Of a stretch of 24,404 nt of DNA, positions 260-18,102 are shown one piece after another. Position numbers and translations under genes: made by a program. The notes beneath the pieces are model-generated. The model was given only the letters and a program-made list of their open reading frames with translations. It was not told the origin of the DNA and did not search any database. Source of the stretch: a virus; IMG/VR virus record IMGVR_UViG_3300008116_007218, positions 1-24,404 of that record; one strand, written 5' to 3'. Position 1 is the first letter of the stretch. Every line of letters begins with the position of its first letter.

Positions 260-1385
260 CGTGTTAGGATCCCTGAGTCCGGGTCCGCTCCCTAGGTTTC
301 TCATCCCTAGGGCACTGACTATATCTTGCTCCCAGATGTCACGCTTTGAACGTTTTGACCCAGAGTTTTCTGTTGTTCAAGAACTGGCTTCGAAAATGCC
401 AGATGTTGAAGCAGCTAAAGTTCTAGGTGTAACGATGGTGACTTTTTATAAAGCTAGGAAGAAACTAGGTATTCCATCTTATTTCGAACAAACCGGTAAG
501 CGTAAGAGAAAATCAGGAGAGACTTACTCTTTTCTGGATTACAATGATCGCTATTTTGAGATCATCGATACGCCAGATAAAGCTTACTTTCTAGGTTTGT
601 TAGCAGCAGATGGAAACATAAGTCCTAGATTAACGGCAGCGAGGATAGCTCTAAAAGAACAAGATTGTAACATTTTAGAGCAGTTTAGAAAGTTCTTAGG
701 TGAAGGTGCTCCAGAACTTAAAACAAAGATTTCTAAAATTAATGAAAGGAACTGTGCCCCTCAAAAAATTTTAGTTCTTAGTAAAAAGTCTTTAGTGGAG
801 GATTTACTTAAGTTAGGTATAACACCTAACAAGTCCTACACTTTGAAACTTTCTTGTAACCTCCGTGAGTTTAAAAAGGACTTTCTAAGAGGAGTGTGGG
901 ACGGCGACGGATCCGTTACAGAACGTCGGTTTAAAGTCACCACGGCTTCTCTAGAGTTTGCTTACCAGCTTCAGACTTGGATCCTCGACGTTAGTGGCTT
1001 AAGTCTTCCGATTAAATCAGAGCTAACCAAAAACGGGAAAGATTTGTATTCTATTCCCGGTTACATCAGGGACGCAAAAGCCATACAGGCTATTTACGGA
1101 GGATCTAGTCTAGGTATTGAGCGAAAGCTTAAAGCTTACGAACAATACTGGGAGCCCCGGCGCTAGTGGACTTCATAATCCGGTCTGGATCGTATGCCCT
1201 AGTCGATGAACCTTCCACTCATTCCTGAGAGGCTTGGCTGCTGATTGCCCCAGACTTCAGACTTTTTAACCATTCACGCTTGCCGTCGCCGGCTACGTTG
1301 TAGGGCCTGAAGCTTTTAAGAAGGGTTTCCAGCAATTCACCGGGTTTTCACTCTCCGATTACTCAGAGAGGCGGCTGGTTTGTCA
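260..1385 (-). ncRNA. Group I self-splicing intron in the capsid gene
   Basis: The leftward strand shows the catalytic core of a group I intron in correct order. P4 is TGCTG (1330-1334) pairing with CAGCA (1239-1243), followed by the typical AGCAGCCAAGCC J6/7 region. The P7 5' strand is GACTA (1200-1204), inside GTTCATCGACTA, and its partner TAGTC (317-321) lies in the classic AAGATATAGTC block. P8 is a perfect 8-bp pairing of GCTCCCAG (1148-1155) with CTGGGAGC (328-335). P9 is CCCTAGG/CCTAGGG (290-296 with 306-312). The proposed ends follow the group I rules: U is the last exon 1 base (1386) and G the last intron base (260), and splicing restores the capsid frame. About 810 nt of endonuclease gene fills the P8 loop. 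I did not resolve P1, P3 or the subgroup, so the ends may be off by a few bases. Confidence 0.88.
336..1166 (+). CDS. LAGLIDADG homing endonuclease, antisense within the intron
   Basis: This 276-aa protein has two LAGLIDADG motifs about 100 residues apart, FLGLLAADG (residues 85-93) and FLRGVWDGDG (183-192), each carrying the acidic catalytic residue. That fits a single-chain, pseudo-dimeric homing endonuclease. Residues 18-46 (ASKMPDVEAAKVLGV...FYKARKKLGI) look like a helix-turn-helix DNA-binding segment. The frame is open further upstream to 240, but that part covers exon 2 and the intron 3' end. ATG 336 directly follows the P8 strand (328-335) and is the sensible start, though no good ribosome binding site is visible. 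The last codons overlap the other P8 strand. The gene is on the strand opposite to the intron and capsid gene, so it cannot be translated from capsid mRNA and needs its own promoter. Its composition is more AT-rich than the flanking capsid exons, as expected of a mobile element. Confidence 0.9.
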   Translation: MSRFERFDPEFSVVQELASKMPDVEAAKVLGVTMVTFYKARKKLGIPSYFEQTGKRKRKSGETYSFLDYNDRYFEIIDTPDKAYFLGLLAADGNISPRLTAARIALKEQDCNILEQFRKFLGEGAPELKTKISKINERNCAPQKILVLSKKSLVEDLLKLGITPNKSYTLKLSCNLREFKKDFLRGVWDGDGSVTERRFKVTTASLEFAYQLQTWILDVSGLSLPIKSELTKNGKDLYSIPGYIRDAKAIQAIYGGSSLGIERKLKAYEQYWEPRR

Positions 1386-1477
1386 ACCGGCTCTGCAGCC
1401 ATCTCAACGATGTATGCAGGGTGAGGACGGTAAAGTTCCGCACCAAGAATCTTCGGGAAATCATTATCGATAAACAT
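1386..1477 (-). CDS. Major capsid protein, exon 1
   Basis: The leftward frame starting at ATG 1477 gives MFIDNDFPKILGAELYRPHP, followed by AYIVEMAAEP and the first two bases of a Val codon. An in-frame TGA lies a few codons upstream, so this ATG is the only plausible start. Without splicing, the frame reads only 19 further codons into the intron before TGA. Joined to exon 2 it gives a continuous, conserved-looking capsid N-terminus (EMAAEP-VVVHDFSKQPGQT). The intron therefore sits after codon 30, in phase 2. There is no strong Shine-Dalgarno sequence; an AU-rich leader with inverted repeats precedes the start. The gene follows the unknown protein at 1562-2365 by 84 nt. Confidence 0.82.
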
Positions 1478-2974: not shown

Positions 2975-3898
2975 TCAAGCAGGATCCATAAAGAGAAGCT
3001 TGCTACGCATAGCTTCAGGACCCATTTGCTGAAGAACACGCCAGGCGTTCTCAGGGCTGCGGTTCATGACGTCGCTGAACTGCTCCCACTGTTGCTGAGG
3101 TTGAGCGCCGGCATTAACGCCACCTGCATTAGCCGGGGGCGCTGGCATGTCGTAGCGGGGCTGGTACGTCTGAGCTTGTTGCTGGCTATAGTCAAGATCA
3201 CCGTCGATGTCCACGGGTACCACTTCCGTGAAATAACGATCGGTGTAGTTAGCCAGATGCTCGGGATCAGTCAGGATCGTCTGCATCGCATCGTGGCGAG
3301 CAGAGAGGGCGTCCATTTTCTGAGCTTGGTCGATGAGGAGATCCTCAAGCGAGCAAGCGTACTGATTCAGGATGCCGGGAGCTTCAATCCCGAAGTGATT
3401 AACGACCTCGGCGGTTACGGGGCTTACGCTCGTTTGCGGGGCCGTAGAAGTTTGCGAGGAAGTTTGGGTCTGTGAAGCGTTGGTAAACGAGGTCGGCGCT
3501 ACCTGCTGCTCCTGGTAAGCCCAAGGTTGGGCCTGTAAACTCTGATTGCTCAGTTGAGTAGCCAGTTGCGGTGCCACCTGGTAAGGCGACTGTTGAACCT
3601 GGCTGGGGGACGGAGAGTTCACCTGGGACAGCACCCGTTCCAGGGTACCCATCGCCGCTTCCCAAGGATTGCTCGGGGAGGAGGGCGACGTTAACTGGCT
3701 GAACTGGTTGCTGGTAGAAAGGCCCGTAGCCTGTTGTACCTGCGACGGCGGTTGGGCTGTAGGTACCGAAGCTACCGCCGGGGTAGAGGTTTGCGCCACC
3801 CACTGCGGGTAGGCGGTTGAGCCCTGGTCCGATGATACCGCCGGGGCTACCGCCGGGGAGACCGGGCTCGGGGTCGAAGCTTGGATCTGCTGGCTCAT
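2975..3898 (-). CDS. Probable scaffold or capsid-assembly protein
   Basis: This 307-aa protein sits just downstream of, and overlapping, the portal gene and upstream of the capsid gene, the usual position of a scaffold. Residues 1-165 are low complexity, rich in Gln, Ser, Pro, Thr and Val (QASTPSPVSPAVAPAVSSDQ and similar). Residues 166-235 are more ordered and acidic/amphipathic (GIEAPGILNQYACSLEDLLI, then a helix with AQKMDALSARHDAMQTIL). A Gln/Pro-rich linker follows, then a short helical tail (ENAWRVLQQMGPEAMRSKLL). Scaffolds are often disordered with a helical C-terminus, which fits. The first 500 nt lie in the +1 frame of the portal gene. The ribosome site before ATG 3898 is weak (TCGGGTAGCTATG), and an internal start such as the Met at about 3652 is possible. 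The assignment rests on position and composition. Confidence 0.62.
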   Translation of the reverse strand: MSQQIQASTPSPVSPAVAPAVSSDQGSTAYPQWVAQTSTPAVASVPTAQPPSQVQQATGLSTSNQFSQLTSPSSPSNPWEAAMGTLERVLSQVNSPSPSQVQQSPYQVAPQLATQLSNQSLQAQPWAYQEQQVAPTSFTNASQTQTSSQTSTAPQTSVSPVTAEVVNHFGIEAPGILNQYACSLEDLLIDQAQKMDALSARHDAMQTILTDPEHLANYTDRYFTEVVPVDIDGDLDYSQQQAQTYQPRYDMPAPPANAGGVNAGAQPQQQWEQFSDVMNRSPENAWRVLQQMGPEAMRSKLLFMDPA

Positions 3899-5624
3899 AG
3901 CTACCCGAGTAAGTTAGTTCTTCCGCGAGGTGGTCGAATGTCCTGTAAAGGAGCGGAGTTATGTTCAGTCTAGGATCAGCAGCAAGTGGCTGATTCGGCG
4001 CAAGGGGATGCGGCGACTGCAACATCTGGCTTAATAATACCAGAAATTGTTGCATTGCTGATTGAGTTTGTTGCACCATGCGGAAGGGGAAACCCTTCAA
4101 CATCTCAGCTCGCTCAGAATCAGTTTTCTCAGGGAAAAGAAACTTAAGAGCTTCGATGCTGTCCACACCAAGCTCTTGTAAATTACGAACAACGATCGAC
4201 TTTTGGTTAATGTCGTATGCCGTATCCTCGTAAACATCGCCTTGATACCTGTAAGTAACAGTGCGATCACCATCTTCGGGTAAACCGACGACGCCAGGAG
4301 GCACTTTATTTTCTTGGAGAGCAAGCTGAATCGTCTGGGTGACTTTAACCTCGTACCGAGCTAAAGATTTCTGATACTTCTCTAGAGTTTCTTCCGTTTG
4401 TTCTTTAGGTAAGCTCGGTTCTTTAAGTCCAGCAGCGGCAATAAACGACTCGCGGAAAATCATCTCCTGGTGATAGATCATCATCTCTAAGAGACGATTG
4501 AAACCGTAAGTCAAGAAGCTTTTGTTCTTACGGAGAGCCGTGGCTTGAGCACGACCCATCAAACCCTTGATTTCTGTAGCGGTCGCGCCAGCTGAAATTG
4601 AAATTTCATCAACGCCGCCCAAGGCAGTACGTATTTCCTCTCGCAGAAGGAGAGCGTACCGGTTCATATCTCCGTTCACTGGGTCCGGAGTCATGTAACC
4701 CACGCGGTCAGAGGGTTCCACGTTCGCAATAATGCGAGGCACGCGAAGACCGCCGCCCATGCCGGCACCAAAAGGCTCGCTTACGCGTGTCGAAGGACTA
4801 TCGACCCCAGAAAAACCGCTCTGACTGCTGATAGTCGGCCTAAAAGTACTGGAGGCGTCACTCGCTTCGACCAGATCACTCCGAGGACGTGAGCTAATCA
4901 GCGTGGGATTCCCAAAAAATTCAATATTCTTTGCGATGTTCCGAGTCATCTCGTCATGGAGCACAATCTGCTCCATAAACGGGTCAAACTCGCCTTCACC
5001 CTCAGTTCCGCTGGCGTTTGGTTTATTTAAAACTTCAACAGCAGGGATAAAACCAAGAGTATTTGGTCGTTTTTTGGCTGGAGTCAGAATAGCTCCAGGC
5101 TCTAAATCAAAACTTAACTCAGTATCAGTCTCAACTTCGCTAATTTCGTCAGCTGTGATGGTCAAGCGTACATAACGCTTGTTTTGTCCGTAGCTATTGC
5201 TAGGTAAACCAAGATTCGCGTTTTTAACTTTATAGCTGTAGACAATAACGACTTCTTCAACCTCTCCGTTTACATCGTGGTAAACGCGATACTGATTTTT
5301 GTTGAAGAAGTAGATCTGATACTTAAGCTTTGGGTCTGGTCTGAAGTAAAACAGTCCACAGCCGTCGATTAAAAAGTTCCTAATAATCGCTGGAAAACGT
5401 ATATCAAGCTTATTTAAAGCAATAACGTCGTCTAGAAAACGTGTACGGCTTTTAAATGTATCTTGATCACAATAAAAAGTCAGACCCTTCTTAATCATGA
5501 GAAGGGTCATCTGCTGTAGATGGCTCAAAACAACCATGGTCGACGCCTGGTTGCTTCGATCCTGAGTGCGGGACGCCTCTAAGATCTCATTGAACCTCTT
5601 CCTTGTTTCGGTCGAACTGGCCAT
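3399..5624 (-). CDS. Portal protein
   Basis: This 741-aa protein would form the dodecameric ring at one capsid vertex through which DNA enters. The first 570 or so residues have portal character. There is an N-terminal helical region (RFNEILEASR...MVVLSHLQQMTLLMIKKG). An alpha/beta part follows, with FYFRPDPK and VEEVVIVYSYKV strands. Further on come HDEMTRNIAKNIEFFGNPTL, SDRVGYMTPDPVNGDMNRYA and a TATEIKGLMGRAQA region like the 'A-T-E-I' segment before the portal stem helix. The last 166 residues are a Gly/Pro/Thr-rich extension (GGSPGGIIGPGLNRLPAVGG) ending in a more specific segment (DLVYQRFTDPNFLANFYGP) and a basic tail (ERKPRNRRGR). That extension is encoded in the stretch shared, out of frame, with the scaffold gene. 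The protein is longer than many portals because of this tail. It follows the 52-aa gene by 36 nt. Confidence 0.85.
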   Translation of the reverse strand: MASSTETRKRFNEILEASRTQDRSNQASTMVVLSHLQQMTLLMIKKGLTFYCDQDTFKSRTRFLDDVIALNKLDIRFPAIIRNFLIDGCGLFYFRPDPKLKYQIYFFNKNQYRVYHDVNGEVEEVVIVYSYKVKNANLGLPSNSYGQNKRYVRLTITADEISEVETDTELSFDLEPGAILTPAKKRPNTLGFIPAVEVLNKPNASGTEGEGEFDPFMEQIVLHDEMTRNIAKNIEFFGNPTLISSRPRSDLVEASDASSTFRPTISSQSGFSGVDSPSTRVSEPFGAGMGGGLRVPRIIANVEPSDRVGYMTPDPVNGDMNRYALLLREEIRTALGGVDEISISAGATATEIKGLMGRAQATALRKNKSFLTYGFNRLLEMMIYHQEMIFRESFIAAAGLKEPSLPKEQTEETLEKYQKSLARYEVKVTQTIQLALQENKVPPGVVGLPEDGDRTVTYRYQGDVYEDTAYDINQKSIVVRNLQELGVDSIEALKFLFPEKTDSERAEMLKGFPFRMVQQTQSAMQQFLVLLSQMLQSPHPLAPNQPLAADPRLNITPLLYRTFDHLAEELTYSGSYEPADPSFDPEPGLPGGSPGGIIGPGLNRLPAVGGANLYPGGSFGTYSPTAVAGTTGYGPFYQQPVQPVNVALLPEQSLGSGDGYPGTGAVPGELSVPQPGSTVALPGGTATGYSTEQSEFTGPTLGLPGAAGSADLVYQRFTDPNFLANFYGPANERKPRNRRGR

Positions 5625-7550: not shown

Positions 7551-8427
7551 ACCCAAACATCTCCGAAATATCGAGAGTGTGTCCCAGTTTATCTTCTAAT
7601 TCCGAACTGTACTTAGTGTCACAATGCTCGATAAGCCCAAAAGGAGCTATCTGAACTTTATCGCCCACCTTAACGATTGGAACGACTCGACGGTGCTCTT
7701 GCCCTAACCGCAAGTTTTCAAACGCGAGCCCCATAGAACTCCTGTCAGCCAGCGGCCAGCAACGAAACTGGATTAGCTCAAAACTTCGTACAGGATCGAA
7801 ACTTTGAGAATGTACATACCTCTCAGCCATCTCTTGATCCAGGATCATCATCCCCATGTAGGGGTTGCCTAAGGACGCGAACCCAATAAACCAATCGTCC
7901 AGTGGAGTCAAATAAGTCTCAACTTGATAAGGTCTGTCGCCCCACACGTCGCTCGTGGCCCTGTTGAGCTGCCATACTTTGTGATTATCAAAAGGCACGA
8001 GCTTGGACTTATAAGTCTCGTACCGACAGAAACCAGGCTCAAGATTTAACTTCTTTAACCTGTCTTTATATAGGAACCAGTAAATAAAGTTTTCGCTAGT
8101 AAAACACATATCGTTCTCTGTATAAATATAAAAGTCGTAATAATTGTTTAAAACGGCTTCTCGCAGTAAACCTTTATGAGCCCAGGTGAGGGAAAACCCC
8201 TGCCAGGCTTCAGAAGCTACGATAATACTTAAAGAGTTAAACGAGACATTAGAATTTACTAACTCACGTAAAGTACTTTCATCTTCTCTGTGCTCATAGT
8301 CTATATAAATAAACACATCAATTTGACCAGGAATTTCTTCGTAGCCACGCAGCGTTTTAAGTAACGCGTCAAATCGCGCAAGGGGGTTATGCGCCGTTAT
8401 CAGAACAAGAAATTTATGGTCTTCCAT
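7543..8427 (-). CDS. Glycosyltransferase, GT-A/GT2-like
   Basis: This 294-aa protein starts with a Rossmann-type beta strand and the typical GT2-like opening KFLVLITAHNPLARFDALLK. It then has VFIYIDYEH and YDFYIYTENDMCF, where E104-N105-D106 takes the place of the DXD metal-binding motif. GFASLGNPYMGMMILDQEMA further on may line the acceptor site. No exact family can be stated. ATG 8427 is chosen over an upstream in-frame start at 8469 because it overlaps the terminase stop as TGATG. It probably transfers sugar to a phage or host acceptor. The coupling to terminase means it should be made late, along with packaging proteins. Confidence 0.75.
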   Translation of the reverse strand: MEDHKFLVLITAHNPLARFDALLKTLRGYEEIPGQIDVFIYIDYEHREDESTLRELVNSNVSFNSLSIIVASEAWQGFSLTWAHKGLLREAVLNNYYDFYIYTENDMCFTSENFIYWFLYKDRLKKLNLEPGFCRYETYKSKLVPFDNHKVWQLNRATSDVWGDRPYQVETYLTPLDDWFIGFASLGNPYMGMMILDQEMAERYVHSQSFDPVRSFELIQFRCWPLADRSSMGLAFENLRLGQEHRRVVPIVKVGDKVQIAPFGLIEHCDTKYSSELEDKLGHTLDISEMFGYA

Positions 8428-9950
8428 CAGTACTCCATCTCGAAGTTGCCTCGACGCTGCAGAAAGCAAACCAAGTGCGTGTAAGCATCTAGTAGATCGT
8501 CGTGAGAAGTTGCACCAATATTAATCAGCTGGTCGAACAACACATCAAACTTACGATATCTGTTAAACGTCACCTTCTTGTTTTCTAGAAGACCTAGAGT
8601 TCCTCTAAATCTAGCTATCTTATCTCCTCTAAATCCTTTAACTTCGTGAATATGTAGATTACCTAGTCCCCACTCGTTCAGCATGACTCGTCTAAGGTCT
8701 GCGGCAAGAGAAGCTTGATAAGCGACAGACTCAACGACTAGAGAGCAAGTCGAGTATGTCGGATAATATTTACCATCATTATCTTCTTGAAGTATCCCCC
8801 ACTCCACAAGCATTTTGCACAGTAAATCTATTTTCTCAAGGTTACCTATAGAGCGCACCTGATGTGCGTCAATAATATAGTACTTGTCTTTTAACCGACC
8901 TCCCAGGACAAATGCTGTGTAGTCAGAGGTTTCGTTCTTGCTTGCCGACAAATCAATTCCAACAGCGAGACTATCGAACTCCGTGACGACATCGCCTTTA
9001 ATAAGTAAATCTGGCGATAACACCAAGTCAGAAGTCATCACAGGCTGTTGCTGGTACTGGAAAGCAAAAGCTACGGGATCGAGTTCCTTCTGACCTAATA
9101 AATAATCAACACTCCACTGCTCAGGCCAGTAACTAACAGCCTCACCGTCATCGTCATAAGTCAAGGCTTCTTGCTGAACTTGCTTCCAGCCTTTATCAGG
9201 CACAAACATCGTTTTATGAATATCTAACGGATGGAATCGAGTCCCCAGACAAATAGCTCGACCGCCTTCAAAAATAATCGGTGCAATCACGGAGCTCCAG
9301 TTATTATTCATCTCTTCCCTAATAGTAGGGTTTTTAATGTCAGTACTAGATTTAATAGGGTCGTCTACAATAACAAGGTGAGCACGTTTAGACGTAATAG
9401 AACCTCTAAGCCCCGCAGCACGCAAGGTAAATTCTTCATCGCCCACACGGCTGATGCCTGCGTAATCAAAATCGATACTCCAGCCAATATCAGACTGCAT
9501 ACCGGACCGAAGCTGGACCTTTGGAAAAATCTTTTTATACGTAGATGAGTCGATAATCTGCTTGATGATCCGACTCTTAGGTATAGCCGTGGCGATGTTG
9601 TAAGAACAATAGATAATCTGCAACGGCAATCCTGCAGTAGTATGACGACCTATGATCCATGCAGTAAACATATTAAGCACTGTAGACTTGGCAGAACCCC
9701 GAGGCGCCAAAATATCTAGGTTAGGTCCTGCTATATCTAATAGATATCTATTACTCTCACCTGTTATAAGGTGTTTATGCCACTCCAGCATATGGGCTGC
9801 TGGAGCCTTATCCATGATTGTACAGAACGTATGGAAATCATCTGAGGCACGCAGAAAGATATTATCGATGGATCCCGTCTCGGAATCCACGGCTTTTGCT
9901 GCACGGAGTTTAAGTGCGCGACGGTAAGCAAATGTCTCTCTGCTAGGCAT
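8427..9950 (-). CDS. terL: Terminase large subunit
   Basis: This 507-aa protein is the DNA-packaging motor. The ATPase domain has a Walker A variant APRGSAKST (residues 82-90), a Walker B HLVIVDDP (191-198), and the coupling motif CLGTRFH (about 234-240). The C-terminal RNase H-like nuclease domain has GIDLSASKNETSDYTA (331-346), the acidic strand LVVESVAY (404-411) and HDDLLDAYTH (483-492), the three catalytic acidic clusters. The length is typical. It is the first gene of the leftward unit that ends at the terminator near 2930. Upstream lies a 49-nt divergent gap shared with the rightward GT4 gene. It is separated by more than 2 kb from the other virion genes at 12329 onward. Confidence 0.96.
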   Translation of the reverse strand: MPSRETFAYRRALKLRAAKAVDSETGSIDNIFLRASDDFHTFCTIMDKAPAAHMLEWHKHLITGESNRYLLDIAGPNLDILAPRGSAKSTVLNMFTAWIIGRHTTAGLPLQIIYCSYNIATAIPKSRIIKQIIDSSTYKKIFPKVQLRSGMQSDIGWSIDFDYAGISRVGDEEFTLRAAGLRGSITSKRAHLVIVDDPIKSSTDIKNPTIREEMNNNWSSVIAPIIFEGGRAICLGTRFHPLDIHKTMFVPDKGWKQVQQEALTYDDDGEAVSYWPEQWSVDYLLGQKELDPVAFAFQYQQQPVMTSDLVLSPDLLIKGDVVTEFDSLAVGIDLSASKNETSDYTAFVLGGRLKDKYYIIDAHQVRSIGNLEKIDLLCKMLVEWGILQEDNDGKYYPTYSTCSLVVESVAYQASLAADLRRVMLNEWGLGNLHIHEVKGFRGDKIARFRGTLGLLENKKVTFNRYRKFDVLFDQLINIGATSHDDLLDAYTHLVCFLQRRGNFEMEY

Positions 9951-18020: not shown

Positions 18021-18102
18021 TGCTGCAGGTGGGACTCGAACCCACACGAGATTAACTCAGCGCATTTTAAGTGCGCAACGTCTACCATTCCGCCACTGCA
18101 GC
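18021..18102 (-). tRNA. tRNA-Leu (UAA)
   Basis: The leftward strand folds into an 82-nt class II tRNA. The acceptor is GCTGCAG with CTGCAGC (7 bp perfect) and discriminator A. The D arm is GCGGAATGGTAGACGT. The anticodon stem is GCGCA/TGCGC with loop CTTAAAA, giving anticodon TAA. The long variable arm is TGAGTTAATCTCG, and the T arm is GTGGG-TTCGAGT-CCCAC. The 3' CCA is not encoded. It lies in the leftward transcript, 15 nt ahead of the zinc-ribbon gene. Confidence 0.96.

Follow-up and report, generated by a model that had tools for sequence, protein, structure and literature searches.

A LAGLIDADG gene antisense to the group I intron that carries it, in the major head gene of S-EIV1-like phages

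How an endonuclease gene that is written against its own intron can be expressed without blocking splicing is an open question for nuclear rDNA introns, where the expression of antisense homing endonuclease genes (HEGs) has been called unsolved (PMC9548176). The same question can be asked in phages at the locus described here. It is found in a 24,404 bp IMG/VR virus record, the whole of which is called the window. The favoured reading, with a probability of about 0.8, is that of a mobile, self-splicing group IA-type intron in an S-EIV1-like head gene, with a LAGLIDADG HEG placed antisense in its P8 loop.

The interrupted head gene and its intron

The window phage is a freshwater cyanophage relative, and its nearest isolate is Synechococcus phage S-EIV1. 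The portal-like structural proteins of the two are 42% identical; capsid exon 2 is 81% identical. Three other minus-strand features of the window are the genes for the portal-like protein of S-EIV1 type (3399-5624) and the terminase large subunit (Terminase_6C; 8427-9950), and a tRNA with a long variable arm (18021-18102; 58 bits in Rfam), the anticodon of which is read as UAA (tRNA-Leu). The interrupted gene had been called a capsid gene from the letters of the window, and it encodes the major head protein: the 371-aa product of an intronless relative (L008) matches PHROG 1357 with an E value of 2.2e-23. In more than 70 intronless relatives the reading frame runs without interruption through MAAEPV and VVHDFSKQ (tblastn). 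The S-EIV1 record contains the major head gene without annotation as such (L006 5860-7011; KJ410740.1 60859-62010); the ORFs listed over it are AHV82227.1, which is antisense, and AHV82228.1, a truncated C-terminal one.

Sequence comparison confirms that positions 260-1385 are a minus-strand group I intron in the major head gene of this S-EIV1 relative. A cmscan search of both strands of the window gives an RF00028 match at 1395-290 on the minus strand (45.9 bits, E 6.7e-9) and no RF00028 match on the plus strand. The intron core thus reads leftward with the capsid gene, as the sequence-only reading had proposed. The score is below the RF00028 gathering score of 50 bits because of a 0.8 kb insert; the intron of contig L087, which has no insert, scores 58.8 bits (E 2.2e-12) and is above it. 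Relative to intronless alleles, including that of S-EIV1, the insertion is exactly 1126 nt, and about 100 such alleles fix the splice sites as GGT^T...ACG^TGTT. The register was chosen with a U before the 5' splice site and a G at the intron end, which gives 1385-260, the same ends that had been read from the window itself. This register is compatible with the intronless alleles, has the U.G pair at the 5' splice site (Table 1) and ends the intron with ACG at 260. Splicing would join ...AAEPV to VVHDFSKQ... in frame; in the unspliced capsid frame there is a stop about 16 codons into the intron.

Table 1. Features of the intron locus, in window coordinates
Feature	Position	Strand	Basis
Major head (capsid) gene exon 1, MFIDNDFPKILGAELYRPHPAYIVEMAAEPV-	1386..1477	minus	tblastn against 70+ intronless alleles
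Group I intron, 1126 nt, IA-like (P7.1/P7.2 present)	260..1385	minus	RF00028; exact ends from intronless alleles
P1, exon 1389-1386 with guide 1375-1372; U1386.G1375 at 5' splice site	1371..1390	minus	Rfam alignment, sequence reading
P2	1351..1370	minus	fold; compensatory change
P3 5' strand, pairs with 1162-1156	1338..1344	minus	fold/alignment
P4-P5 domain with extended P5a/b/c arm	1238..1335	minus	fold; 5 double-sided changes in P5 arm
P4	1335-1329/1244-1238	minus	hand assignment
P6		minus	hand assignment from Rfam alignment and minimum-energy fold
P7 5' strand GACUA, pairs with 321-317	1200..1204	minus	invariant
P7.1/P7.2 insertion between P7 and P3	1168..1199	minus	fold
LAGLIDADG homing endonuclease gene, 276 aa, N-terminal helix-turn-helix-like region	336..1166	plus	profile matches, alignment
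P3 3' strand, antisense to endonuclease codons P-R-R	1156..1162	minus	hand assignment
P8 5' strand GCUCCCAG, antisense to endonuclease codons W-E-P	1148..1155	minus	hand assignment
P8 3' strand CUGGGAGC	328..335	minus	hand assignment
P7 3' strand UAGUC within AAGAUAUAGUC	317..321	minus	Rfam alignment
P9, three double-sided compensatory changes among alleles	290..312	minus	allele comparison
P9.1-like hairpin	267..286	minus	allele comparison
Capsid gene exon 2, cut by contig end	1..259	minus	sequence comparison

The helices are manual assignments that combine the Rfam alignment with the minimum-energy fold. The stretch 1199-1168 folds as two hairpin elements, P7.1 and P7.2 (the subgroup call is by inspection); their location between P7 and P3 points to an IA-type intron. 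The fold z-score is -4.5 on the minus strand versus -1.8 on the plus strand. Among six distinct alleles, 99.4% of cells pair, and double-sided changes occur at 11 pairs versus a mean of 2.9 in shuffles and 0-3 with slid partners. These compensatory pairs are located in P2, the P5 arm, P9 and P9.1. No allele varies in P3 or P7, and the only variation in P4 and P8 is by wobbles; covariation is therefore no test of these four helices. Several of the one-sided changes exchange G-C and G-U or A-U and G-U pairs, and such exchanges preserve pairing only in minus-strand RNA.

The antisense endonuclease gene

The endonuclease is encoded on the plus strand (coding region 336-1163, stop codon 1164-1166). 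It matches LAGLIDADG_3 (E 6e-12; PF14528, 46.1 bits versus a cut-off of 22.5) and PHROG 4645 (E 2.3e-36). Both motifs, LGLLAADGN and LRGVWDGDGS, are conserved in six aligned proteins, and their acidic residues are invariant. Between distinct alleles dN/dS is 0.11-0.28 (mostly 0.11-0.21); the alleles differ mostly in the third base of codons, and numerous stops interrupt every other frame. A PDB sequence search returns two ATPase chains only, matching residues 76-240; these are presumably inteins. AlphaFold models have a pLDDT of 53 for the endonuclease and 30 for the head protein, values too low to base a fold comparison on.

The gene fills the P8 loop. As had been noticed from the sequence, it reads rightward, with the ATG at the base right after one P8 strand (328-335) and the stop past the other (1155-1148); the stop is also past P3 (1162-1156). 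The C-terminal codons W-E-P-R-R, which are antisense over P8 and P3, do not vary among the aligned proteins; the bases concerned thus serve both protein and ribozyme. A start further upstream, in the capsid exon or intron, is ruled out by a stop 6-8 codons before the ATG in contigs L007 and L004.

Strand logic precludes translation of the endonuclease from the capsid transcript, and this part of the sequence-only reading stands. A promoter scan of 1-1700 finds no sigma-70-like promoter on the plus or the minus strand, where chance would give 1.6, and ahead of the endonuclease ATG there is no obvious ribosome-binding site. In L004 and L005 a gene lies 2 kb upstream on the same strand as the endonuclease. 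It was considered as a shared promoter source and rejected; the genes of the two contigs are mutually non-homologous and are not tied to the intron. Unrelated small plus-strand genes (L004 1475-1951, L005 1504-1950) are found at an equivalent place opposite structural genes, and this place, roughly 2 kb away from the intron, is a variable cassette site.

The endonuclease would be made from a separate opposite-strand transcript, probably before late capsid transcription, and the capsid pre-mRNA would splice itself. The two transcripts could plausibly interfere, since an mRNA for the endonuclease inevitably overlaps P8 and P3; the timing of the transcripts could avoid this. The same overlap may be read as a function. 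An early endonuclease transcript would pair with the intron RNA (P8, P3 and loop) and hold back capsid splicing until late infection; if true, the homing gene would also time late phage gene expression. An mRNA for the endonuclease has to span the P8 loop together with the P8 5' strand and the P3 3' strand, and there is an antisense RNA in cyanophage which links psbA to a homing endonuclease (Millard et al. 2010, in the form in which PMC3428280 cites it). However, intronless alleles predominate and need no such control, and three contigs have lost the gene and retain the intron. Regulation by the antisense transcript is thus quite improbable.

Presence, loss and spread

The 5' junction scan gives 13 IMG/VR stretches besides the window. 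The intron is present at the capsid site in 14 contigs, versus 103 distinct intronless exon contexts; its presence is optional. Junction and protein scans together find the antisense endonuclease at this site in 11 contigs including the window, from about ten metagenomes, and it is intact in all 11. Related phages had been proposed as the place to look for the same endonuclease in sense; all 11 HEG-bearing contigs have it antisense, and none has a sense-oriented copy at the capsid site. A search of genome contigs found no host-genome relatives. A dead insertion, or an assembly artefact by which the capsid gene is broken, might be suspected because the window contig ends inside this gene. However, the structure recurs in the 11 contigs and about ten metagenomes; its boundaries are conserved, it shows compensatory changes and its ORF is intact, which makes such an origin extremely improbable.

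Three contigs (L087, L095 and L096) contain the same intron in a 334 nt form, from which the endonuclease is deleted and in which the core is intact. Their P8 loop, GCTCCCAG-TAACGTTCAAAACGTGGCAT-CTGGGAGC, still contains remains of the gene from both sides, namely its start-codon end (ATGCCACGTTTTGAACGT) and its C-terminal end. These remnants rule out the HEG-less intron as the ancestral state; the endonuclease has therefore been lost.

Some LAGLIDADG intron proteins are maturases, and the strong purifying selection seen here would also suit a protein which mainly helps splicing and is not, or is no longer, a homing endonuclease. Both LAGLIDADG motifs and their acidic residues are nevertheless invariant. 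The intron persists with an intact core in the three contigs without the gene (although a second LAGLIDADG intron is present there), and antisense synthesis is an odd supply route for a splicing cofactor. A mainly maturase role is thus unlikely.

Exon flanks of 15-21 nt on each side are 93-96% alike among intron carriers versus about 82% in the 103 intronless contexts. Further out, carriers are 79-89% alike and intronless contexts 75-82%. Optional occurrence and this flank pattern fit homing, with either co-conversion or target-site dependence; conservation near the site could partly reflect the sequence needed for P1 pairing. On the homing reading, the endonuclease would cut the intronless capsid alleles that co-infecting relatives carry, close to the site of insertion, and the intron would then be copied into the cut allele by recombination. 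The antisense orientation is inherited within the intron lineage, and deletion of the gene leaves a compact ribozyme; both are part of the explanation favoured at the outset.

A second group I intron is found about 15-17 nt downstream in the head gene of other contigs, with a LAGLIDADG-type gene in sense or with none. This second site is a hot spot: contigs with an insert there include L084-L086, L183, L172, L177, L219 and L228, HEG-less versions are found in L182, L192 and L196, and L187 also belongs to it. There are at least three insert sequence types (GGACT.., CTTGACC.. and CTGAGCTT..), which contain LAGLIDADG-type genes in sense or no gene; the inserts that were checked, from L084 and L087, match group I introns. 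L087, L095 and L096 have the two introns side by side, separated by a tiny exon (L087, minus strand, about 3402-2047; exon TGTTGTCCACGACTT.., about 15-17 nt, the exact ends of the second intron being ambiguous). The idea that the frame is kept when this short exon is skipped was dropped because of that ambiguity. Four kinds of natural allele thus exist around a single capsid site: some lack an intron, some have it with the antisense gene, some have it after deletion of that gene, and some have the neighbouring intron with its gene in sense. They make a good natural experiment.

Comparison with known systems

The second capsid intron is the closest in location. It interrupts the same gene, has a LAGLIDADG-type endonuclease and also exists in HEG-less versions; its endonuclease differs in that it is encoded on the capsid strand, and it has only marginal similarity to the antisense one. 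Related LAGLIDADG proteins (about 28-35% identity) are found in phage recA and DNA polymerase introns, namely Staphylococcus I-MsaII and Proteus PM135. In contrast to the window, the sampled cases with a detectable or annotated intron are all in sense, and no antisense orientation is found among the sampled endonuclease relatives that have a group I core or an annotated intron. In a huge-phage genome (L125), a HEARO RNA match (2265-2486; 68.9 bits, below the cut-off of 83) is located just before a LAGLIDADG-type match.

The sequence-only reading held that antisense endonucleases are mainly known from nuclear rDNA introns. They are indeed well described in the nuclear rDNA of myxomycetes, for example I-DirII and I-DsqI of Didymium (PMC9548176, PMC3679873). 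These introns are like the window intron in that the endonuclease gene is antisense to the ribozyme, and they face the same problem of antisense interference. They differ in that they are group IE or IC introns of nuclear rRNA genes, encode His-Cys box endonucleases and use a separate RNA polymerase II transcript; in Dsq.L2066 the HEG is located in P9.2, whereas in the window it is in P8.

As a general statement the claim is too strong, since there is a phage precedent. The capsid-gene intron of mycobacteriophage LittleE contains a LAGLIDADG-like ORF on the bottom strand, and RT-PCR together with protein sequencing has demonstrated that this intron is spliced (Pope et al. 2013, PMC3706429); no other phage intron with an antisense HEG was found in the literature, within partial open-access coverage. 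In LittleE, the capsid strand matches RF00028 with 30.7 bits, which is short of the gathering score, and the opposite strand matches LAGLIDADG_3. Both phages thus have a group I-type intron in the major capsid gene, with U before it and G at its end, and a LAGLIDADG-type ORF on the opposite strand. The LittleE ORF differs in its length (177 aa) and in its location after the whole matched core rather than in P8. The two proteins are barely alike (24% identity over 89 aa) and the hosts are unrelated; splicing in LittleE was demonstrated by experiment, and that of the window intron is predicted from sequence. The arrangement in the window is rare but not unprecedented in phages, and antisense homing genes in capsid introns are now found in two unrelated phage groups.
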